Of a stretch of 50,904 bases of DNA, positions 318-47,720 are shown one piece after another. The DNA is taken from NCBI RefSeq assembly GCF_000003605.2, contig NW_003140822.1:62218-113121 (forward strand). Direction: 5' to 3'. Made by a program: the position numbers and the translations under genes. The DNA is from Saccoglossus kowalevskii. Lineage: Eukaryota > Hemichordata > Enteropneusta > Harrimaniidae. Positions within the stretch are counted from its first letter, which is position 1. Every line of letters starts with the position of its first letter. Under the pieces are notes generated by a model. The model saw only the letters and a list, made by a program, of their open reading frames with translations. It did not search any database and was not told the origin of the DNA.

Positions 318-3300
318 GTAAATCCATTATATTATCAATGTTTACATTTGATACAGAGTGTCCTGAGGAACTAATAATATTGTCTTTGTGAGGGTGTTTT
401 TTATAGCTGAGTCATAGAATAACTTTGAGAGAATCACAATATTCATTCACATGACTGGAATTTCATAGTCAGCTACTTCATGTAAAAATCATTAAAAATC
501 AAGCATTTCTGTCGTACTGGAACCAGATCTCTTGGTATATACATCGACCTTGTCATATCTCTGACAATTTGATTCATGATGGCCGAATGATGGCCAATTT
601 CTGATAAATCTAGATCCAGATTTTGGCCATCTTGGTACATACAATGAACATTATGAGACCTTGATGCATGGCATTTTGTTGACAGGTGGCCATTTTGTTT
701 TAATCACTGCTGTTCCAGAGCCATATCTGTGACTTGCCGTGATCTAAAGTTTATTCTTCTCTTAAACTTAAGCAAGACACTGTTCATGACTAGTTCACGC
801 ATAGTTTATGCATGTCCCACATTGGCATGACGAGTTTGCGCAATTCGAACAGTGTCGTCCCGACTTGGGCACGCCATATAAAAAGGGGGCCTCCTTATTA
901 TTGGATTGGCTGTGGAAGAGACAACATGCTGAATGCAAGAGAGACAATCATTGCAGGGAAGAGAAGATGCCTATACCTGTGATATAAGTTGTCTCTTTGC
1001 TGGCAATCTCTGGAATGGCGAGCAGTGTCCAGGAACACCACTGTCGTGCAGTAGTTGTGAACTGCTCATGAAATCGTCTTGAACTGCTCGTGCCATCAAT
1101 GCGTGAGGTACACGTGACCATGTCAGTGGGAAGGCAAGGCCATGCTGCGACGCACACCAATTTGTAAACATGTCGTGAACTTGACGTGAGCTGTTCGTGA
1201 ACTATTCATTGCAGTTTGTGACAGTCGTGGCATGGCACTGTCATGCATCCTCCCGACGAGTTCACAAAAAGTTCTCAAACAGTTTGTGCATAGTTCACGA
1301 CCCGGTTTCTAAATTTTGTCGTGACCAAAATTTGGAACATGGCATGCAGTCATGATGGGGTTTACCCACACTTCACGCCAGTTTACGACTAGTTTGTGCA
1401 CTGGCATGACTCAAGTCAGCCTTGCTTTATGGGGACTCATGTAATTACTCATTCATTTCATTGTATTTTAAACATGAAATGTTTACTGGATGAGAAAAAT
1501 ATCCTGTTATTAATGTAAGCTCTATTCGCAAAACATATATTCATGAACTAAACTATAAATATAAAATTGCATAAGGCTCTATTTATTCATGTTTTGCAAA
1601 TCATGAACATTGACTTTATATTAAAGTGACACTATCATCAAAACTGCAAAGGTACACTATGATGTTCAAAACATAAACTTGGCTCATTTCGGTAACTTTA
1701 TAGTTTATCATCACAACATACTTTTAACTATGCAGACCAAGCATGACGCATATACTTGATAATTGTTCGTCTGTAAATATGCAACTGGTAGATCTCTAAA
1801 AATGGTCCCTATCAATATGCATACATTTGTTGTTGTGTCTGTCCTTCTTCTGCATATGTAAAGTTCTGATGAAAGTGCTGCTTAAGCAATAACAAAAATA
1901 GATTTCTCTCTGGTCAGTACACACATCAGTTAGAAAGGTAAATGCATGACTGCACCATTTTATCTAAGGACCAGAAACATATAATTTTTTGACCTTATTG
2001 CTCAGTTTATATTTTATTTTGTTTAACAGACACTTTCAAGGAAAGGAGAAGAGGTCATCTTTGAAGCAGTTATGAGTTGGGTTAGGCATGACCTGACAAA
2101 GCGAAGTCCTCACATGATAGACCTGCTCACATGTGTTCGATTTCATCTTGTCAGCCCCAGTTATTATGCACAATACGTTATAAAGGACGATTTGATTGCA
2201 AAGAATCCTAGCTGTAAGAAAATGATTGATCAAATGTATTGTGATAAACTTACGACACGGACACTGAAAGTGAGGGGATATTTTGATGCTATAGTGGCTG
2301 TTGGTGGACAGGCACGAAAGTGAGTATAATGTTTGTGGTATTGGGTTTATTACTAATAACTCTGTGTGTATTGGTATGCTTGAGCTATAATAGCTTTGAT
2401 ATAAGGTCTGATGTTTTCTGAGAAGAGGAAATTGCATGAAAAGACCATGACCATAGCTATGAATCCAAGTATTTTTTGACTGTTGACTGACGTATCACTC
2501 TGCTATGTAAGATTTTTCGCACTGATAAACAGGGTTCAACCAATGAGTGAAACACAAGTGACTAATTTACTACAAGTGTATAGTTTAAAATCTCCATATG
2601 AATACATGTACAAGTGTGTGGTTTTCATTAATCTCCATCCCCATATCATATATGTGCCTGAAAAATGTGGCCAAGCTTCATTAGATTTTGTTACTCAAGT
2701 TGGTATCTTTAGTTATCTCATTTTGATATTTTTTCATAAAAAATGCTAACTTCAAGTGTGTCTTGAAAATCAGTCAGTTATTTATGTTGTAAATTACAGT
2801 AATGTAGAGTTGTTATCCACGGTGCGATGTGCAGTCCCATACACGAACCAACCCCAATGGTTAGACTTTCCTGCAATGTCAACGGGAAGAGTGTTACACT
2901 CAGTTGTCTCTGCAGGTGAGTAACACATATGTCTACAAGATGTAATTAATAATGATTTACAATCTCTATATGAAGTATGTGGTTTACAATCTCTATATGA
3001 ATACAAGTATGTGGTTTACAATCTCTATATGAAGTATGTGGTTTACAGTCTTTATATATAATATGTGGTTTACAATCTCTATATGAAGTATGTGGTTTAC
3101 AGTCTTTATATATAATGTGTGGTTTACAATCTCAATATGAATACTAGTATGTGGTTCACAATCCCAATATGAATGCATGTGTGTACATGGTTTAAAATCT
3201 CCATATGGAAACAGGTATGTGGTTTACAGTCTTTATATTTATAATGTGTGGTTTACAATCTCAATATGAATACTAGTATGTGGTTCACAATCCCAATATG

Positions 3301-6300
3301 AATGCATGTGTGTACATGGTTTAAAATCTCCATATGGAAACAGGTATGTGGTTTACAGTCTTTATATTTATAATGTGTGGTTTACAATCTCAATATGAAT
3401 ACTAGTATGTGGTTCACAATCCCAATATGAATGCATGTGTGTACATGGTTTAAAATCTCCATATGGAAACAGGTATGTGGTTTACAGCCTTTATATTTAT
3501 AATATGTGGTTTACAATCTCCATATGAATGCATGTGTGTGGATTACAATCCCAATATGAATGCATGTGTGGTTTACAATCTCCATATGAATGCATGTGTG
3601 TGTTTTATCAACTCCATATGAATACAAGTATGTGGTTTACAAACCCAATATGAATGCATGTGTGTGGATTACAATCCCAATATGAATGCGTGTGTGGTTT
3701 AAAATCTCCATATGAATGCATGTGTGTGGTTTAAAATCTCCATATGAATCCATGTGTGTGTTTTAACAACTCCATATGAATACAAATATGTGGTTTACAA
3801 ACCCAATATGAATGCATGTGTGTGGTATAAAATCTCCATATGAATGCATGTGTGTGTTTTACAATCTTCATATGAATACAAGTGTGTGGTTTACCATCTC
3901 CATATGAATACAAGTGTGTGGTTTTCATTATTGTCCATCTTCATACCATATATGTGCCTTAAAATGTGACCAAGCTTCATCAGATTTTGTTACTCAATAT
4001 GGTATCTCTAATTATCTCGTTTTTATTTTTTTCATGAAAAATGATAACTTCAAGTGTGTCTTGAAAATCTACAGCTTGCTGTGTTTTGGTGTTACAAGAA
4101 TAATTGAACCATGGAGTAAAAAAGCATGTATATTTTGTTTCAATTTTTTTATAGGAGGCTTTTTATTTGTGATTGGTGGAACAGACGTGTTTGGAAAACC
4201 ACTTGACACTGGAGAAAAGTATGACCCACAAACAAACTCTTGGTCAGCCATTACACCCATGCTACAAAAACGTCATGTGTTTGGTTTGGTAACCATTGAC
4301 AACCATATTTATGCTATTGGTGGTTGTGAAGATGAAAACATAAAGACAATGGAGGCATACAACATATACAATGACACATGGGAAATGAAGCCTCCCATGC
4401 AGATTACAAGAAGAAAGGCTGCATATACCACCATGCAAAAAAAGATTTATGTTATCGGAGGTGATAGCGGTGGCCAGCCTATTCAGCCTGTTGATACTGT
4501 GGAATGTTTTGATCCATTGTCACAGACATGGAGTATTATTGCCCCTCTGAAAGAACGCCGTTTTCAAGCCTTTGCGCTTGGTGTGTATGATAGGATCTAT
4601 GTGTTTGGTGGCTATCGGAATTTACTCTGTCCGAGCGCTCAGAATGATTTGAAATTTTGTCACAGTGAAGTGTACAATACTGAAAGACATGGCTGGGAAA
4701 CTCTTCCAAATGATGGAATGTGCACGATGACTACTAGCTCAGGTAATTTCATTCTTTTTCCACCAAGATGTGTGGTTATATTATTATTATTCTCAACCTA
4801 AGGGTTCATGAGTCTGACTGTTATATTTTACATGTAGGGCCTTACTTTGTTGTTTGGATGAAGTAGACTTAATTTTGGTTCATCTATCTGTCTGTAGTCA
4901 TTTCTTGGACATGTAGTGACTGATTTTCATCAGAATTAAGATGAACACACTTGATGATTTATAAATAAACATGTCAATTTTGTTTTTGATTTAATCAAAT
5001 GTGGCTGACTGGTGGCCATTTTGGCAATAAAATAGGGCTAAATTCTAATACATAAATTGTAATAAATTCACAACCATTTCTCGGAGATGAGTGCTGATCT
5101 TAATTCAATGTGACATGATGACATTACATATTGCACATTATTAATTTTATCATCGGTAATATCAGATTCAAGATTATTAATTGGCAGTAAAATGTACCTT
5201 GAAGATGACTGGGTCAATTTCACTCAAAACATGGCATGTTTACAAATATATTGGGTGATATTAGGAAAAATTGTTATAATTTATTTGACATCTGAGTCAA
5301 GATAGCCGACAAGAGGCTATTGTGTTCTTAGTTAGCTCCATTTTTAACAAAGTTGCATCATCAAATTTGTCAGATAACATCCAGTCTTCTTTTCAGTATG
5401 CTGTACAAATCATTGTTTTTAGCCAACTCTGACAAATATTTTTCACCAAAATTGTGCAAGTACACTCCCCGTAATGTGACTAAGACTGTTGTACTATTTT
5501 GAAAGTTTCATCTAATTTATGTTTTGTTTTATAAGGAACAATGGGATTAATACAGTACATTTATTAATATTAACTAAAAAAGAAGATGATTAATTTTACA
5601 AAATAATTGCTGATGACCACATTGTTCTGTAAGTCATCGTCATTTGGATCGATCCAGTGATGTAGTTTACTGATATTGAGTAAAAGGAACATAATGAATG
5701 TAGTTATTCCCAACAAAACTGGAAGCATGTATATACGTATACTATATTGTGTATATGACAGAGTGAAGGTGTTCATATTGGTGATTGACTGTCGTCCGTC
5801 AACAATTGCATTTCCAACTTCTTCTTGAAAACCACTAGCTCAATTGCTTCAGATTTGTTCCATATCTTCAATTCTCTATTTAAAAAAATATTTTTGTAAT
5901 TTTTGGTAAAAAATGCTATTTTCAACTTCTTCTTGAAAACTACTAGCTCAATTGCTTTGATACTTGTTTTTAGGTACCTTGGGTGGACCTCTGTCAGATT
6001 TGACCATTTCGTGGCGATATCTTCAATTCTATATTTTTAGCAAATATTTTTGTCATTTTGGCAAAAAAAAAGCTATTTTGAATTCTTTTTTGAAACAACC
6101 TTGGTGGATCTCTGTCTGTGTTGTTCATTTCATGACAATATCTTCAATTCTCTATTTTGAGCAAGTATTTTTGTCATTTTTTTCAAAAATGTTACTGTTG
6201 ACTTCTTTTTAAAAACCGCTACTCCAATTGCATTTTCAGATGAAATTCAAAATGGTTGACTGGTGGCCATTTTGTTGTCAACGATTGACTCTACACATTT

Positions 6301-8495: not shown

Positions 8496-10102
8496 TTATA
8501 TAGAAAAGCAAATACACAGGCATGCATGCTAATTCCAAAAGACACTCATTCATGGGACTCAAAAAATACCCAAAACCTTGAGAAATCTTTTTGTCCTGTC
8601 TTTATTGCTAAATAATGCGACACAAGAAAAAAAATGATGACTTGGTTTTCTGAAAATACACAAAAATACACATCTGTGGTTTTAAATCACTGTACATTTA
8701 TAATTTTTGATTTTTTTTTTAAGGGTGGCAATGTCCAGGTGATGAGACAAGACTATAAATGAATGGGTCTACAAAATCGATTAGACGAAACATAATTGTT
8801 GGCCACAAGATCTGATCAATATTTACCATGAAAACAATTTATCTTTCATTTGGTTTTCAAATTACCGTGATTCAGCAACACATTTGTGATAAAATGACCA
8901 ATTTGCAGTGCCTCAAAACGAATTCCTGATTTTGGTGTTCGTTGAAAATCATAAGTGAAAGATTCATTAAAATTACTGATATCAATTTGTTGCTATAGGA
9001 ACAGCCTTAAAAGTGAACATAATGCCAAGATGCGCATGCAGTTGTAACATGGCTATATAAAAAACCAGAATTTCCATTTTGAGGCAGAACTGTAAGTCGG
9101 CAGTAATTTGTACATGACAAGCGTTTATTGACGTTGGTGTACTATTTACATCCATTGTTATGCAAATAATAATGTAGTGTTGCACAAACTGGGTGGCTGG
9201 AACGAAAGAAAATATCTAATGAAATATACAGGACCATTGCAGAGTCGTGAGATCTCTGGATGCCAAGATACTAAACAGTATTTGACTTTCTCTGCTTGAA
9301 GGATGTAATACAGTTGAATACTAAGATTACAGTCACACTCTGAGAAGATACTGTGTGGTTTATTGATGTTTTCGAATATTTGATGGTATGTACATGTGCG
9401 AAATATACAACAGTTAAAATAACTACAGCGAGTCACTAGCATTTGGAAACATGGCTAATTATAGTGAATCTATGCATTTCAAAAGTAAATGAAAAATCAA
9501 CTGGCAAACTGAAAGTCAACTGGATATGCAGCATCAATGAATATTCATAACCATCAAATATGACAAACATAGAAAACATAAAATAAACACCCTGATGTAA
9601 ACTTGAGGAAACAGTTTGGGTCAAGAAAAAACTAAGCATATCCAAGGACATGCAACCAAATTTCTCCATTGTTCCCTCTAAGCAACTTTTCTTAATATAA
9701 ATATTAATTTGGTTAATGTTAATACCAGACTTTTACTCGGTGACCTCACTGAGTAAGTTGCCTCCAAAAGAGGCTTAAAGGAAACACTCTTTTCAACTCA
9801 TTCCCCGAATGCATCATTATCACATACTCAACAGAGCACAGCAACCAAAGAAACTCCAGCATTTTCTGCAGGTACCTGCATGTATTATACAGATGGCCAT
9901 TACATTTCCTATACCAGAGTAAATGTTTTCTCTGAAGATAAATATTTAACTTTTAAGAAAAAAAAAGTAGACATAAGACAACATTGATGAACTCCTACAA
10001 GATGAACAATAAATTTACTTCAAAATATTTGAAGATATGTCAAATATATGTACATGTACAGGAAACATAATGGCCGTCTGTGTCACTGACGTTACACACA
10101 CT
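8496..10102. other. Intergenic DNA, no gene recognised
   Basis: AT-rich sequence with only short frames (9158-9442 and 9436-9669 on the minus strand) that have no domain, splice support or repeat origin I recognise. The distal TOX 3' UTR may extend into it. Confidence 0.5.
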
Positions 10103-10402: not shown

Positions 10403-10463
10403 TTACTTGACTGATGGGAATATGTTTGGATTCCGCGATGCAACCCAGGCAGTGAAAACATCT
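10403..10463 (-). CDS. TOX: TOX terminal coding exon 8
   Basis: Acceptor tgctttcttctag, then AGATGTTTTC. It completes the arginine codon from exon 7 and reads [19 protein letters not shown] before TAA at 10405-10403. The DVF-x-AWVASRN block is the conserved end of TOX4-type proteins, which identifies this 61-nt exon despite its size. Confidence 0.93.
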
Positions 10464-13400
10464 CTAGAAGAAAGCAAAATATAAAAAATTAAAAAAAACC
10501 AAGAACATCAAAATGAAATGAGATACACAACAATAAGTGTCAAATACTGAAAACCGCACAGACCCAAATGAAAGCTACTCCCATCAAAAAACATAATGGG
10601 GGTAACAGTGCCTTCAACTCTCCTACAGATGATGTTGAGGGCGCTGTTGCACCAGTCAGATTTTTAAAAAATTCTCTCGAGCTATAATATTGAACTTATT
10701 TCCTGATACAAATATATAACCTAACCAGGTAAGCCAAAATTGGTACATTTGCTGATTGACAGTCTGGCTTATTGAGAACATGTTTTCTTTCCTGCTGTAC
10801 ATTGAACAGTGTTTAACCTAACAGATATACATGTAGGGTGTAACATGCATGTAATCATATGGCAACGGCTATTACACACTATCAGTTAATTTACCGATGG
10901 AAACCTGATAACATTAATGATCAGTTTGACTGTACAGCGCTGTCAGTGACTTTAATTGTCAATTTGGACATCAGATCTCATTTGTTTTCGAACAGCTCCT
11001 GTTCAGCTGGGTCCTTCATCAGTAATTGCAGGCACAAATGGATTTAAATGCAATAACGATCGTAATGCTGTGAGAGGTACTCCTGTGTAATTACTTTAAC
11101 ACTTTGTGTAGTTACTTTGACATTAGCTTGTGGATTATGCCTATCGGCTATGTACCAAATATCATAGGTTATTGAGTGGTAATGGAGTAAAATACGTTGT
11201 CCGTTCTGATGATGTCACACCAAGCCATTAAATTACACGCTACATGATTAAAATTAATATCCAACGACACATGTCATATTTCATATATCATTTAACGTCA
11301 CCTTCAGTCACGTCTGCACAAGACTTGATGAATGGACATTAATGTTCTGTCCTTGGCAATATTAGATGTTACATCATTGACATAGATTGCAAATCGTGTT
11401 ATCAGGAGTGAGTAAATAAATCTTTATTAAAGTTAATGTGAAATATATCTTCTGCTTAAAGAGCAGAGCAACATATAGAATGAAAAACAAGTTTAAATTC
11501 TGGACTATTCCAGAGTTTGTCAACAAGTCAGCTTAGGAAGAATAGAGGTACCAACAACAAAGGAATTCAGTGGGTCTGGATAGGATTACCAACAACAAAG
11601 GGAGTCAGTGGGTCTGGATAGGGGTACCGGAGTCAGTGGCTCTGGATAGGGGTACCGGAGTCAGTGGCTCTGGATAGGGGTATCAACAACAAAGGGAGTC
11701 AGTGGGTCTGGATAGGGGTATCAACAACAAAGGGAGTCAGTGGGTCTGGATAGGGTTACCAACAACAGAGGGAGTCAGTGGGTCTGGATAGGGTTACAAA
11801 CAACAGAGGGAGTCAGTGGGTCTGGATAGGGGTACCAACAACAAATGCCTTCAGTGGGAATGGATAGGGTTGCCAACAATGAAGGGATTTGTGGGGATGG
11901 AATTACAGATCCCAACAAGGAGATACATCAGGTATGGGTATATGATACCAACAACAAAATGCTTCATTGGGTGTGGTTAACAACAACAACAACACAGAAC
12001 ATCAGTGGAAGTGAGAGAGAACCCAAAACAGATCTCAGGCCTTCATTGTTTTCTTGAGTAGCAGGAGTTTGGCAAGTAGGCAAGGGACACATACAGGAAT
12101 GAAAAGCACAACAAGCAAAACATTAAATAAACAACACTTTTACAGGGGTAGATAGGGGAAAGAATCCAACCCTTACCTTGCTGAGCATCGGAAACATCTT
12201 AGGGGAGGAAAGAAAAAGAAATAGTGCAAAAATTTACATTTGGACTGAAATAATTGACATCTAGAAAATGGCTACAAGTTATGAAAACACCCAATAACTT
12301 ATGCTGAGGATTCATTGAGTTGCCAGCAAAGCAAGGGTTCAATAAGTGGGTTAAAAACTCACCTGCAGTGACTGACAACACACTCATTACTGCAATATTC
12401 TTTATCCCAATCAGGACTCTCCACAGCGGGATTCTCACAACCAACCCTCATGCAGGTCGCTGACCTTTTACGCTCATTTGTGTGAACCTAAGAAGAGTAA
12501 TTATGACCAATGATATGTCAGTTGCAAGTGTGCTTTCTCCAAAACTGTTGTACATGTAATACCTCATCAAATTTCATTTTGCTCACAGAGTTCACATGTG
12601 ATTATATTGGTAGTCGCAAAACGTACAAAGTAATAGCATTCCTGCACATTTATCAAAGCAGTATTCACTTAACATGGTGTTTTATGAAATATGAGCATTT
12701 TTAAATAGCGAATTTTGCTCAATGCACAATATACAGAATTTTAATTTAGCTGCCAACAATCTAATTGTGAAAATATGCTTTTTTTTAAAAAGAAATATCG
12801 TTTCACAGTAACTGAAAATTATATTTTCAAAGAAATCAAATCGGTCTTACCATATGAGGCTGAAGTTTTGGATTGGTGATAATGGTTTGAACAACAGGTT
12901 GTTGAGAAGCTGACCTGGCAACTGTCGTCATGGTAACAGTTATGGGCATGGAAGCTGTTGGGGTTGGTTTTGGCGCAATGATTCGTGGTATTGACTGAAT
13001 CATTGTAGTAGTTGTGTTGGCACTGGTGAGTGTGTTACTGGTCACTGTCATCTTTTTCTGTTTGTGACTTGACACATCTTCTGTTTCTGCCTGGTCCACA
13101 GCAGCCTGCAGCAAGATTAAAAAACAGAAAATTAGTGATTTTTATACATTTTCCAAACCACATGCAGTACAATGCATTATGGGAGATTTGTAAAAACAGC
13201 TTAAGGTTACACAGTAACTGCAAACATCCTTATTCATTCATTTCTTACAAAATATTAAAAACTGATGTTCTTTCCTGTATCATTAAAGCTTGGTGTAGAT
13301 ATTTTCAGAAAATGATAAATAAAGCAAAATCCTCTGTAAATGCATGCATGATACAAGCCTCCATTGCAATTATTTCTTATTTCAATATATTGCCTAGGGA

Positions 13401-16400
13401 GTGATGATCCTAACCACAGAATTTCACAAAAGATGATGAGGAATGAATAAACAGGCATTGAAAATTGCTGTCAACATTTCATCGTCATAGAAATCAGCAA
13501 GACTACATCACATTTGGAATTAAAATCAAAATGTTTATAATGCTCAGTTCAGTTTATTGCAAGACAACTGAATTGTTCGGAAAAAAGTAAAATCCATGAA
13601 AAATGTTTTATGCAGAGTATATGTAAACAACAACAATGAAATCTTAAAGCACCGCAGTCTTCATGCAGCGACTGTTCACACTTTGTGTAAACGAACTATG
13701 TATTTGATATGCATTGTGTGAGTCGCATAGAATCATACCGAACACACTGTGACATGACGAATAGTGCTTTACTAATGTTATTGTGTATTAGTCATTTCTA
13801 ACTGGAATTAATGAATACCATGTACATTGTATATTATTATTTTTAATAACTGATCTCAATGTAAATAACGGTGAAAACAATATTTTAAATATTTTAGCTG
13901 TCTTACTCGTTTCAGCAATTATTATTCTTGTAATTGGCAGTGAGCCAACACATAGGGAGTGCCATTAAATTATAATATACATTATGAACTAAAATTATAT
14001 ATAGTATTTTATTATGGAGGTGAATGGCCAATTTATTAATATTAATAATACAGTAATACATTAATGAAAGATGGCTGCAACAATAACCACCAAACCTTTC
14101 AATGTTAGGCTATTCAAAACGCAATTTAATGTCTCTGGCACTTTAATAAATTATTATGAATATTGGTAAAAAAAGGACATTAATATTCATTTTGAGTGTA
14201 AGTATTTCATACGTTTTCATTTATAGCTACATCATATGTTGATCCAGATTAAAATAAATGTTTTTCTATTACAGCATCTATTCTGCCTCCATGTAAGTTT
14301 ATACAATCACTACATGGATATTCAAAGAAATATGGTAGACAGTCTGCAGATCATAATCAATTTAAATTCTATCAATTTCCTAACTAGCAATGATTTTTAA
14401 AAAATAATTCTGGTGTTTGCTGGGACTGGACCAGTGTTTGATGTGGCCTAATCAGTGTTTGCTAGGACTCGGCCAGCGTCTGACGTTTTTAATTTTAAAG
14501 AAAGTTATAACAACCAAAATTATGTATTGAAATGCTACTACATGTCATATCCCAGATCAAATGCCAGACAAAAGACTTAAAATAAAACACAACATAGATA
14601 AAAGGATTGACTTGTGGTCGCATGACCTTTGATGAGCAATTACCAATATACCTGCATACCTTGGTACTATGCAGCACTGCGCTTCAACTTATTTGAAATG
14701 ATTATTTTGAATATTTATTTGATCAATTTTGTTTGAACTTGGTGAAATGAGTCCAACTCTGTAAAACATGTTTAATATTTGCATTTAATTTAATGATCTT
14801 TATTTCCTGAATGAGATTAAAATTGGTCAATGCAATAATTATTCTTTATGAGGAAAGTCATAATCTACCGTTTATTATAAACTAAAAACTCTTGTAAACA
14901 TGATTATTGTTTTCAATAAGCAAATGTAGAAAATGTTGACCTAAATGCCCTGAATACGTTTTGACAACATTCACATCATATAATATTTTAAAATCTAACA
15001 CTGATGAGCCCTCTAAAGTTGGTTGCCATAGCAATATCATCTGTGAATTACTAACCTTTGACACAAGACTAGCTCTGTAGGCAGCTAGTTTTTTTAAGTA
15101 CTCTTTTTTAGCAGCCTCAGTATTCTGCTTGTAAACCTATGTACAAAGAGAAAGAACAGTCAAACTGTTGATCATTTGCATACAATCAAAATCGCCACCT
15201 GAAATATGGCTGATTACCGATATTTTCTGCCAAACTTCAAATATGAAAAACATAATACTGACATACATTTAGAAATGAAAACTGATAGTCGTGATATTTT
15301 TTTTGGCGAAAAAATGTAAATAAAAAAAAAAAATAAGTAAGAATAAAACAGATTTCAACAACAGGAGATAGCTCTTACTTGCTTCTGTTCTACACCCAGG
15401 CTGTCCCACATCGAAGCCACAATTTTTGAGACTTCACCAAAACTAGCGTTTGGATTCTGTCCTTTGATGGCTGCCTGAGTATCCCTAAAAAACAACGCAT
15501 ATGCAGATACTGGCTTCTGTGGCTCATTCGGGTCCTTCTTTTTCTTTTTCTTTGGTGTCTTTTTCTTTGGCGGAGGTGGCGTCACTTCAACAGCCGTTCG
15601 TTTCAGAGTGCCGACAACCTGTTTACACAACAATAAAATACACACAATTTAAAACCAATGTTGGCTTTCAGCATCAGTCAAATTTAAAGTAGGAGGTCAT
15701 TTTCCAACTTTTATTAGAAAATGTTTGAATATATGTGAGCAATTAAACGATGTACCTGAGCTTTAGATCGAAAATAGCAATTTTTACCAAAATTGACAAA
15801 AATATTGACTAAAATTAGAGAATAGTAGGTATCTTTACAAAATGAACCACTCAGAGAGAGAAAGAGAACCACCCGAGGTACATTTGCAGTGATTATAAAA
15901 ACCTATACAGCCGACGGTTTTTAAGAAGAAGTTGAAAATGTAGCCGGCAGACAATCAGTGATATGAATAGACAGTGAAGCTAAAACATAGTGCAGACATT
16001 TTCTTCCGATAAAGCTCTAAGCCTACAGTGTATTACATGTATTTGTTTCATCCAATTATAGAAGCTGACAATTTTATCAAAATATTTTGTTGCAAGTTAA
16101 TTTGGACACAAGTTATCAACTTTTCTTGTTTTTGACATGATGCGCTAACACTACAAGCTATAGACAATTACATCTACATTCACTGTATATTATCTAATGT
16201 GTCTCTCAGATTTCTGGATGCAGGGGTTAGGGGCGGTACATGTGAAAGCACTCTGCATATACAGAGGTCAAAAATACAGATTGTAATTACACTTATGCTT
16301 GCAGACTATTATAGCAACACTTAACCTTTTGAGCAATATTATATTTCCCACCAATTTTTTTTTTAATATGCATTTTCTTTCTGTGTGGAATTGTCATAAT

Positions 16401-19400
16401 GTATTACGAAGTACAGATCTAGATCAGAATAAATGAGAAAATTTTTTTCTGATTGTGACTAAAAAATCATTGGCGTATAATTTTGTTTGTGAGAGCCATT
16501 GTAGAGATACATACCTGTGAAAGGGGAGTGTTATCATCACTATCTTCACTACTTTCATGGGGTATCGGGGACGTTGTTGGTGGCGATGGACTGTGCTTTG
16601 ATAACCGACCATCAACCATGTGTATCCCATGCCGCATTCCAACTTGCAGACCGAGATGTGAGCTGATTGCTGATTGGTTGATTGTAGACAACTGACTGAC
16701 TTGACTCTGTACATGCTGCGGTGGTGGAGGTATATGAACATCGTGGATGTACGAGGGGGTTGGGTGTGTTGTCATAGCAAACGTTGTCATGGGAAGAGTA
16801 TGACTATAGGACTGTTCTCCCGTCGATTGCACTGCACAAGGTACCGTGTCAATTCCCAAGCTACAGTTTGAGGCTGTTATAGGTGGAATATCAATTGTCT
16901 GTGGTGGGAATTGTGGATCAGGGAATGTTTCCATTGCAGGGTTCGGTAAAGAATCTGCAGTCTCTGTGATATGAGCCTGGGTAAACTTTGGGTTTGAGTC
17001 ATGTGTGAATGTTGGTGATGGGCTTGTCATTGGTTCTGTTAAGGCTGGTGCTGTGTTTGGGTCGGTCATACTGGTAGACATTGCTTCCATTGCTATCTGT
17101 GGCGGAGTGATTGGAGGAATGTCAAACTCTTCATCACCTAGGCTTGGTGTATGGAAAGTCTGAAAAAGGTCAAAAATAAACAATGGTGTTTAGTAATAAA
17201 ATAGTTTTGATTTTTAAAAAGTCACAGTTGGTGCAGAGGGAACATTTAAATTTCACACTTGCTTTATACACCACATGAAACAAATAAAAAGGAAAAAAAA
17301 TTTATTAAAACGCTAAAATAGTGTTCAAAATTATATATTTGACATTGAAGTCATGCCATTCTTGCATCAGAGCTTTACTTCCGCTTTGAGACTATGTGAA
17401 ACAACATAGTACTGTAAATAGGACCATAGTTAACATCAATATGTCGTGCATTGTGTGTTAAATGAGTTAGATAAGATGAACACTGAAAATCTGAAAAAAA
17501 CATGATACACAAAAAGTTGTGTTGCACGTAATAACAGTTTCAATGAACGAGTGAAACTATAAGTGTACTTTCAACCACAGAAAATTGTAGTAGGTAAACA
17601 CAGTCCTCTGTAATTATTTAATATAACAATGTATTCCGGACAAATAAGTATGAGAAAGGATATTTTGTCCAAAACCTCTGGTTATATTTAATAATTACCA
17701 GGGACTATGATTACCTACTACTATTTTCTATATACGTTTGTTATATTTATTAGTCCTAGCAACTTTCTTCTATTTTAATTTTAGCCACAATGGATATCAC
17801 CCGTGAAGACAAATAACCGCATCATATAACTTGGCTTATATGCATCTTAATGTTACCATGTGACTGCGAGAGATATTGAAATCTTTTGACTGGAAGCAAT
17901 TTAACAAGTGATAGTATATACTGTATTAGTGGGCGTTTGTTTCACTTACAGGGTAGCAAGGATGGATGCAATGTTAGCGGTTCTTGTTTCACTTACAGGG
18001 TAGCAGGGATGGATGCAATGTTAGCGGTTCTTGTTTCACTTACAGGGTAGCAAGGATGGATGCAATGTTAGCGGTTCTTGTTTCACTTACAGGGTAGCAA
18101 GGATGGATGCAATGTTAGCAGGTTCTTGTTTCACTTACAGGGTAGCAAGGATGGATGCAATGTTAGCAGGTTCTTGTTTCACTTACAGGGTAGCAAGGAT
18201 GGATGCAATGTTAGCAGGTTCTTGTTTCACTTACAGGGTAGCAGGGATGGATGCAATGTTAGCAGGTTCTTGTTTCACTTACAGGGTAGCAAGGATGGAT
18301 GCAATGTTAGCAGGTTCTTGTTTCACTTACAGGGTAGCAAGGATGGATGCAATGTTAGCAGGTTCTTGTTTCACTTACAGGGTAGCAAGGATGGATGCAA
18401 TGTTAGCAGGTTCTTGTTTCACTTACAGGGTAGCAAGGATGGATGCAATGTTAGCAGGTTCTTGTTTCACTTACAGGGTAGCAGGGATGGATGCAATGGG
18501 TCATAATTGGAACGAAGAATTTATTGACGATTCATTCACTAGATATTGAGACAGCATGTGTTTGTCACAACCTATTTTGGTAGAAAATTACTTTTAGGCA
18601 TGCTGTGCGTTTTAAAGTAGGAATTTTAAGATAAAATTGGCTACAAATAGTTATTTATAAAAATACACAATATACATGTAGAACACATTACAAACAAAGT
18701 CCAAAACTTGTTGCTCAACATTTTATAGTAGAAAATTTGATCAAGAATTTTTTCTAAATTATGATAGATACTATAACATTTTCGCCGTTAGATTTTATTA
18801 ACTTCCACTGTGACTCCCTGTCCTATTAGAACCCCCCCAAGTGATATTTCATTCATTGTTTGTATGCTGCAAATTCTAATGTCTAAAAATATATGTAAAT
18901 TTTTATACATAGGAGATGTACTCAGATATAAATAGGCAAATATAATTTGATGTTTGGTAAAAATATTTACAGTTCTACATATTAATATTTCTTCTGGTAA
19001 TTATGATAATCTGTAAAATTATGCAAATTAGGGGAGGGATATAAAATTGTTATAAAATGATGGGGTATATTCTAACACCCTTAAATTGCACATTATAGAA
19101 ATATTGGCACTGACTAACCATTTCACTGCATATAATTTCACTTCAATTTTTGTAAAAACAATAGGATATTAATTCTTCGGAAACCACATGTCGTCATATA
19201 CATAGAAAACTGCAATTTGTGTTATAATTAAAATATTGTTGAATTTAATTACACTGTTAAAGTCATTAAAGTCAATTTATGTAAATGTTTTTTTGCTGGT
19301 TCAGATTGCATCTTTTGTACCACATAATTACAAGTAAATTACATTGTCAAGGTCGTATGTGCCAATTTTAAATTTAGCAGAATTATAACTTTCTGCAAGC

Positions 19401-44374: not shown

Positions 44375-44751
44375 ACCACATGATAAAGTACCTACTGATA
44401 GATATCAAGCTTTGAAGATAATGGCCATCATTTTTCATTTTCAAAGAATGGGCCCCCATACAAAGAGAACAAATTGATAGAACATATGGCACTCTATAAG
44501 TCAATGACGTGCACTGAAGGAAGAGAAAACAGACATAATTTAGATCTTTGTAACCTCATGATAATAGCGTATGTCTTACAGCTGCAGTATGCATTTCTGA
44601 ATCTTCATGATTGCTCTCCCTGATGATTCTGGACTAAATATAAAGTGCGTTTGATTTATTCCTTGGAAAAAGAATTGATTTAAACTTATGTGCTGTAAGG
44701 GTGAAATTATAAAAGGAAATTTTGTATCTAGTTTTGTTTTCAAATACTGGT

Positions 44752-46428
44752 CTATATAGATTCAAATACTGTTGCACATCAAATCAAATACTGGCACACA
44801 TTGATTCAAATACTGGTGTACATGATTCAAACATTGGCGCACATTGATTCAAATACTGGTGCACATCGGTTCAAATACAGGTGCACATAGATTCAAATGC
44901 TGGTGTACATCGACTCAAACACAGGTGTACATTGATTCAAATACAGGTGCACATCGATTCAAATACAGGTGCACATCGATTCAAATACAGGTGCACATCG
45001 ATTCAAATACAGGTGCACATCGATTCAAATACAGGTGCACGTCGATTCAAATACAGGTGCACGTCGATTCAAATAAAGGTGCACATCATGTTGTGTACAT
45101 CGATTCAAACACTGGCACACATTGATTCAAACACAGGCACACATTGATTCAAATACAGGTGCACATCGATTCAAATACAGGTGCACATCGATTCAAATAA
45201 AGGTGCACATCATGTTGTGTACATCGATTCAAACACTGGCACACATTGATTCAAACACAGGCACACATTGATTCAAACACTGATGCACACTGATTCAAAT
45301 ACTGGCACACATCGATTCAAATACTGTTGCACACTGATTCAAACACAGGTGCACATGGACTCCAACACAGGTGTATATTGATTCAAATACTGGCGTACAT
45401 CGGTTCAAATACTGACACACATTGTAGCCAAATACTGGCACACATTGATTCAAACACAGGCACACATTGATTCAAACACTGGCACACATTGATTCAAATA
45501 TTGACGAACATTGATTCAAATACAGACACACATTAATTTAAATACTGGCACACATCAATTCAAATACTGACTCACATTGATTCAAATACTGGCACACATC
45601 GATTCAAATACTGGTGTAAATTGACTCAAATACTGGTGCACGTCGATTCAAATACTGTTGCACACTGATTCAAACACAGGTGCACATTGACTCCAACACA
45701 GGTGTATATTGATTCAAATACTGGCGTACATTGATTCAAATACTGGCACACATTGTATTCAAATACTGGCACACATTGTATTCAAATACTGGCACACATT
45801 GTATTCAAATACTGGTTCACATTGTATTCAAATACTGGTACACATTGTATTCAAATACTGGTACACATTGTATTCAAATACAGATGCACATCGGTTCAAA
45901 TACTGGCACACATTGTAGTCAAACACAGGCACACATTGATTCAAATACTGGCACACATCAATTCAAATACTGACGCACATTGATTCAAAACTGGTACACA
46001 TTGTATTCAAACACTGGCACACATCAATTCAAATACTGACTCACATTGATTCAAATACTGACGCACATTGATTCAAATACTGACACACACTTATTCAAAT
46101 ACAGTTATGAATCAATATTAATTCAAACACTGGTGCACACTTATTCAAATACAGGTACACAGATTCAAATACTGGCACACATCGGTTCAAATACTAGCAC
46201 ACATTGATTCAAATATTTACGCACATCGATTCAAACACTGACACACATTGATTCAAACACCGGCACACATTGGTTCAAATACTAGCACACATTGATTCAA
46301 ATATTTACGCACATTGATTCAAATACTGACACACATTGATTAAAATACTGGTGCACATTGATTCAAACACTGGCGCACACTTATTCAAATACAAGTACAC
46401 AGATTCAAATACAGTTATGCATCAATAT
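44752..46428. repeat. 22-bp minisatellite, ~1.7 kb
   Basis: About 75 units of attcaaatactggcacacatt with substitutions (acaggtgcacatcg, actggtgtacatcg). Higher-order copies are visible: an aaataaaggtgcacatcatg block at 45071 and 45195, and a gttgcacactgattcaaaca block at 45326 and 45657. Apparent 70-93 codon frames (44844-45147, 45709-45983) are repeat translations. Confidence 0.95.
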
Positions 46429-47220: not shown

Positions 47221-47720
47221 TGGAATGACAGAATGCCAATTTATTCTAGAGTAGTGGGACGGTGATTTATATTTGGAATGGCATGATGCTGACTTATTCT
47301 AGAGTAGTGGGATGGTGATTTATACTTGGAATGACATGATGCTAACTTATTCTAGAGTAGTGGGATGGTGATTTACACTTGGAATGGCATGATGCTAACT
47401 TATTCTAGAGTAGTGGGATGGTGAGTTATACTTGGAATGGCATGATGCTGACTTATTGTAGAGTAGTGGGATGGTGAGTTATACTTGGAATGGCATGATG
47501 CTGACTTATTCTAGAGTAGTGGGATGGTGATTTATACTTGGAATGGCATGATGCTAACTTATTCTAGAGTAGTGGGATGGTGATTTATACTTGGAATGGC
47601 ATGATGCTAACTTATTCTAGAGTAGTGGGGTGGTGATTTACACTTGGAATGACAGAATGTGGCTTGTATTTGGAGTGCATTTGGATGCTGACTAGAGTGT
47701 GATTTATACATGGAATAGCA
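47221..47720. repeat. 53-bp minisatellite, about 9 copies
   Basis: Units begin tggaatg at 47221, 47274, 47327 and onward at 53-bp spacing and contain gatgctgacttattctagag and tagtgggatggtgatttata. The last units (after about 47650) are degenerate and shortened. Confidence 0.93.

Follow-up and report, generated by a model that had tools for sequence, protein, structure and literature searches.

A candidate 21-nt microexon, predicted to split the PNUTS-binding helix, in a TOX4-like gene of Saccoglossus kowalevskii

The 3' portion of a TOX4-like gene lies on the minus strand of the stretch of DNA analysed in this work (the window, 50,904 nt of Saccoglossus kowalevskii contig NW_003140822.1). Spliced together, six of its exons give a continuous reading frame of 468 codons and a stop (Table 1). 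The introns among these exons are in phase 0, except for the last one, which splits an Arg codon as AG/A. The joined protein contains an HMG box (Pfam HMG_box, 63.1 bits against a cut-off of 25.4), and a search of solved structures with the C-terminal domain gave one convincing match, chain B of 9CI7, which is human TOX4 (E 3.7e-21); the three further structures listed had E 0.47 or worse. The HMG box and the 9CI7 domain match place the gene as TOX4-like and, in the reading that we favour, as a probable TOX4 orthologue. The adjoining gene, on the plus strand at 2027-4798, is represented by the BACK and Kelch exons of a BTB-Kelch-type gene, and a minisatellite array of 27-32-nt units (2956-3924) lies between its BACK and Kelch exons.

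Table 1. Exons of the TOX4-like gene and features around the candidate microexon, in the order of the minus strand (positions of the window)
Feature	Positions	Strand	Basis
Coding exon upstream of the HMG box	16515..17159	-	Open-frame join of exons
Coding exon with the HMG box	15379..15618	-	Pfam HMG_box on the joined protein
Coding exon, end of the HMG box	15056..15136	-	
TOX4-like coding exon that links the HMG box to the zinc loop	12851..13105	-	
Coding exon preceding the microexon: zinc loop (CX4C...CX3C), then the first part of the PNUTS-binding helix	12363..12487	-	
Upstream intron, 165 nt, if the microexon is used	12198..12362	-	
Stem arm in the upstream intron	12323..12339	-	Predicted, 17 pairs, -26.4 kcal/mol
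Pyrimidine tract and acceptor AG of the microexon	12198..12222	-	Sequence and score
Candidate 21-nt cassette microexon, adds CFRCSAR	12177..12197	-	Open, phase-preserving, acceptor 10.1 and donor 11.5
Downstream stem arm across the microexon donor: 8 bases at the end of the exon and the 9 intron bases that follow	12168..12184	-	Predicted
Microexon donor, -3 to +6	12171..12179	-	Score 11.5; predicted paired
Downstream intron, 1713 nt, if the microexon is used	10464..12176	-	
Last coding exon with stop: remainder of the PNUTS-binding helix and C-terminus	10403..10463	-	

The candidate exon lies in the last intron and reads, on the minus strand, ...tttttctttcctcccctaag/ATGTTTCCGATGCTCAGCAAG/gtaaggg, the slashes marking its borders at 12197 and 12177. 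Splice sites were scored with generic, approximate matrices. The acceptor scores 10.1 bits, and four other acceptors of the gene, not counting those of the 17159 exon and the HMG exon, score 9.1, 10.3, 6.9, and 9.0. With 11.5 bits, the donor ranks second among the scored donors of the gene (6.9, 7.7, 7.9, 9.9, and 13.8), the top value of 13.8 belonging to the preceding exon. Because that exon (12487-12363) ends in ...TGC AG and the last exon (from 10463) starts with A GAT GTT, the skip and include isoforms are both open. The first-pass annotation had proposed a 21-nt segment at this place with a strong acceptor, a good donor, and matching phase, and the sequence and the matrix scores bear out each of these points; its translation of the insert as CFRCSAR, with two added cysteines, is likewise right. 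We consider use of 12197-12177 as a microexon somewhat more probable than not. It is a promising candidate of an already known type, and its position is one where the predicted effect would be sharp.

The C-terminal domain of TOX4 has been solved together with PNUTS, which allows the place of the insert to be read at the level of single residues. In human TOX4, zinc is held by Cys572, 577, 592, and 596, residues 597-612 form the PNUTS-binding helix (PDB 9CI7), and the hydrophobic interface consists of W587, Y591, V597, V598, V604, F605, W608, and V609 (PMC12278311). The two proteins bind with a Kd of 0.3 nM, and their contact has been called constitutive (PMC12278311). When the skip form is aligned to human TOX4 in 9CI7 (77.4 bits), all four zinc ligands and all eight listed hydrophobic contacts are identical, in agreement with the earlier suggestion that skipping gives the conserved family sequence. 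Among the polar PNUTS contacts, by our own numbering on this alignment, D586, D588, R612, and N613 are kept and K585 is Pro; since K585 is replaced here, PNUTS binding by the skip form is itself something that we infer. The inclusion form aligns to the same chain with 63.9 bits and a 7-residue gap.

CFRCSAR falls within the PNUTS-binding helix, between the matches of human R602 and D603, and the junction codon is the match of R602. The insert had been placed within the conserved C-terminal cysteine motif of TOX proteins, where it was proposed to alter a zinc-binding-like module; the insert is, however, outside the zinc module. We reject altered zinc binding as its main effect for two reasons: all four zinc ligands precede the insert, and the Cys directly before it, human C601, was Ser in the TOX4 domain that was crystallised and titrated, which still folded and bound at 0.3 nM (PMC12278311). 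Counted from V597, the inclusion form would present F, R, A, R, F, and T at the places of V604, F605, W608, V609, R612, and N613, and the helical hydrophobic moment falls from 0.42 in the skip form to 0.27. Seven residues make about 1.94 turns of an alpha-helix, so the helix face downstream of the insert would keep nearly the same direction and be shifted by about 10 angstroms along the axis. With two Arg and one Ala placed in the buried core, PNUTS binding should be lost or much reduced. The predicted effect of the insert is therefore a loss of PNUTS-PP1 binding with zinc binding unaltered.

RNA folding of 12370-12100 on the sense strand predicts a long stem between the upstream intron and the microexon donor. 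It has 17 pairs, of which 14 are Watson-Crick and 3 are G-U, with a predicted energy of -26.4 kcal/mol and a loop of 138 nt, and a repeat finder reports a 16-nt inverted repeat (88% complementary) at the same site. When the upstream intron was shuffled 2000 times, no helix of this strength formed with the microexon and its donor (the strongest was -22.4); for comparison, the strongest helices found at four other donors of this gene range from -4.0 to -10.0. When the 505 GT sites in the gene region are ranked by accessibility, the microexon donor falls within the lowest 0.2% with folding windows of 300 nt and within the lowest 0.4% with folding windows of 200 nt. Both internal mismatches of the stem arms at the DNA level are G-U pairs in the sense RNA, as would be expected if RNA pairing matters, with two sites being few. 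A switch by temperature is unsupported, as the stem is predicted to be formed at 5, 15, 25, and 37 C alike (mean pair probability 0.99-1.00). We also considered a small transposon with terminal inverted repeats as the source of the stem and found no support for it: the 20-nt flanks contain no adjacent direct repeat, and the window holds no second copy.

Several observations moderate what can be read from this stem. The donor of the preceding exon, which is surely used, is also predicted to be inaccessible (within 1.4% of GT sites), so predicted pairing need not block the use of a donor. Taken as a whole, the 271-nt region is only moderately more stable than its shuffled versions, with a z of -2.2 and 4 of 200 shuffles folding as well. 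Helices of -26.4 or stronger occur at three places on the two strands together (12339/12168, 10075/9895, and 10602-10650 on the plus strand), and 60 shuffles gave 0.017 per strand; this genome thus seems to form such repeats for other reasons too. By our own arithmetic, the chance that one of three such helices covers a given donor is about 0.3%. We think that a stem of such strength could keep the exon silent, and its position over the donor suggests skipping by default.

The first-pass annotation had suggested a regulated cassette, for example a neural one. Researchers have described the exons of the neural eMIC programme as small, with a short upstream intron, a strong upstream donor, UGC near the acceptor, a long AG-free stretch, a UCUC-rich tract, a CUAAY branch point, and a weak acceptor, to which a weak donor is added in the fly (PMC8797185). 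The candidate has TGC at -31, and 45 nt separate its acceptor AG from the end of the next AG upstream. The ordinary exons of the gene have TGC within the last 50 nt in four of four cases and AG-free stretches of 26, 92, 43, and 81 nt; as both marks also precede ordinary exons, they carry little weight. UCUC and CUAAY were looked for in the 165-nt upstream intron and neither was found, and both splice sites are strong rather than weak. The eMIC signature is only partly present: size, short upstream intron, strong upstream donor, TGC, and AG-free stretch are there, and UCUC, CUAAY, and a weak acceptor are absent.

A real possibility, to which we give slightly less than an even chance, is that 12197-12177 is a cryptic splice-like pair that is never used, the donor-like string being an arm of an intronic inverted repeat with no role in splicing. 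How readily such a pair arises by chance bears directly on this. Among all site pairs spaced by 3-51 nt on the two strands of the window, the microexon alone has both scores this high, and it alone has a sum of 21.6 or more. Shuffled introns held a pair with both scores this high in 1 of 1000 cases and one that was also in phase and open in 0 of 1000; at a laxer cut of 8 and 8, 14% of shuffled introns held a pair and 3.7% one in phase and open, and the real window has 3 such pairs on its two strands together. Shuffling the whole window (n = 150, both strands) gave on average 0.13 pairs by sum; the mean was 0.05 when only lengths that are multiples of three were counted, and 0.03 when both scores had to be reached. 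At least one pair by sum occurred in 12% of the shuffled windows. With the cut lowered to a sum of at least 18 and at least 6 per site, 2 pairs are observed where 1.96 are expected; there is no excess at this level, so the top pair alone stands out. Being the only pair of its strength in the window speaks for a real microexon, and the window-wide expectation by sum and the strong inverted repeats elsewhere in the window speak for a cryptic pair. However, by arithmetic from the window shuffles, only about 0.0025 pairs would be expected on the sense strand of the approximately 5.3 kb of mapped TOX4 introns if length divisible by three and an open frame are also asked for, and an inverted repeat alone does not produce a donor consensus. 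The cut-offs were derived from the observed pair, which makes all of these chance figures optimistic. The pair is unusual for its place, yet within chance for a 51-kb window.

Two other readings accept that the exon is used. The preceding HC and the two Cys of the insert could form H-C-x-C-x-x-C, for which the inclusion form has the spacing SHCRCFRC, and a second metal site of this kind would fold the start of the helix into a new zinc turn and create a new binding surface instead of a simple loss. We think this improbable, as the inclusion form has no Pfam family match up to E 5 and, besides 9CI7, no convincing match among solved structures. A lineage-specific constitutive exon would agree with the strong splice sites, but the interface residues are unchanged on either side of the insert, which is hard to explain if the insert were in every transcript, and the donor is predicted to be buried; this reading seems to us very improbable. 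We also give little credence to the idea that the segment arose when the first part of the last exon was duplicated and then decayed, a proposal that concerns origin only and is compatible with the other readings. The starts of the last exon (10463) and of the microexon (12199) do share a pyrimidine tract and AGATGTTT, but the match past the tract is 8 nt, and about 1 in 100 randomly drawn 69-nt pieces equal it, as do 2% of the shuffled versions of the microexon.

The explanation that we tentatively favour, with a probability not far below even, is that 12197-12177 is a real, mostly skipped cassette microexon of the TOX4 orthologue, whose inclusion leads to the loss of PNUTS binding. Use of the exon, its default skipping, and the loss of binding are what we infer from the sequence, the frame, the conserved residues, and the predicted stem. 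According to this explanation, the stem would form once the donor has been transcribed, hiding the donor from U1 and looping out the acceptor. Because the donor would be held in a 17-bp stem with the upstream intron, skipping would be the default: the preceding exon, with the strongest scored donor, would be spliced to the last exon, and TOX4 would bind PNUTS-PP1. If the stem were opened or outcompeted by a helicase, a binding protein, or altered elongation, U1 could bind and the exon would be included. CFRCSAR would then stand in the middle of the PNUTS-binding helix, with the four zinc ligands untouched, and, if the helix continues, the V597/V598 face would be followed by F, R, A, and R where PNUTS expects V604, F605, W608, and V609. 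The included isoform would keep the HMG box and the zinc loop, and its PNUTS binding would be lost or strongly weakened. When fly Tox4 lacks the last 34 residues, PNUTS does not co-precipitate with it and its nuclear accumulation is reduced (PMC12278311), and the included isoform might likewise show less nuclear accumulation.

A bolder proposal, which we regard as unlikely at present, is that TOX4 is not always a constitutive PNUTS-PP1 subunit and that, in this lineage, a hairpin-gated microexon provides its splice-controlled release with the zinc loop intact. If this were true, an HMG-box factor would be freed from an RNA polymerase II phosphatase by an insert that splits a helix and adds about two turns. 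Engineered PNUTS mutants have been used to split the PNUTS-dependent from the PNUTS-independent roles of fly Tox4 (PMC12278311). If the exon is used, the included form would be a natural separation-of-function isoform, DNA-binding TOX4 without PNUTS-PP1, which would mean that the animals themselves separate these roles and that the 0.3 nM contact becomes a regulated one.

The candidate resembles several known systems in part. Compared with the complex of human TOX4 and PNUTS in 9CI7, the skip form shares the four zinc Cys and the eight hydrophobic contacts and differs at K585, and the inclusion form differs by seven extra residues in the PNUTS-binding helix. The available text of the human TOX4 paper mentions no inclusion-type isoform and does not contain the word 'isoform' (PMC12278311), and the passages of PMC3842248 consulted describe no TOX4 splice variant. 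Keyword literature searches found no TOX4 microexon in print, and among the microexon literature matches listed for TOX, no title names a TOX HMG-box gene. A pattern search for relatives gave 24 matches in bacterial/archaeal and 79 in viral collections, none of which was confirmed. Like the neuronal microexons of the chromatin proteins PHF21A and LSD1, the candidate is tiny, keeps the frame, and would alter a single interaction of a nuclear protein; the transcripts of those microexons are known and neuron-specific (PMC11605454), whereas the TOX4 exon is predicted from genomic sequence. It shares with the eMIC (Srrm234/Srrm3/4) programme (PMC8797185) the small size, the short upstream intron, and the strong upstream donor, and departs from it in its strong acceptor and donor and in an upstream intron that has neither UCUC nor CUAAY. 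A parallel to the stem is the hairpin of tau exon 10 (PMC6720520), where the donor also lies within a hairpin and lower inclusion is expected; in tau there are about seven stable local pairs, whereas the TOX4 stem has 17 predicted pairs and a 138-nt loop, with the partner arm in the upstream intron.

The window also contains other repeats. Just past the TOX4 stop codon, probably in the 3' UTR, lies a 26-nt inverted repeat (9889-9914 / 10056-10081; 85% complementary, 141 nt between the arms); on the sense strand, no uninterrupted helix within 250 nt is stronger than its 20-pair core (10075/9895; -29.3 kcal/mol). Within the last TOX4 intron, 10602-10650 of the plus strand is predicted to fold into a hairpin of 17 pairs around a loop of 15 nt (-27.6 kcal/mol), and 11542-11887 is a 38-nt minisatellite of 9.6 copies; on the sense strand, two of its units have acceptor-like sites of 9.3 bits (11641 and 11613), equal in strength to the real last acceptor. 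A 48-nt minisatellite at 17937-18498 (11.8 copies, 98% alike) is open on the plus strand for 144 to 174 codons, and each of its units contains the acceptor-like TTGTTTCACTTACAGGG. Two further arrays consist of 22-nt units (44739-46414, about 75 diverged copies) and of 53-nt units (47221-47651, 8.1 copies, 94% alike).
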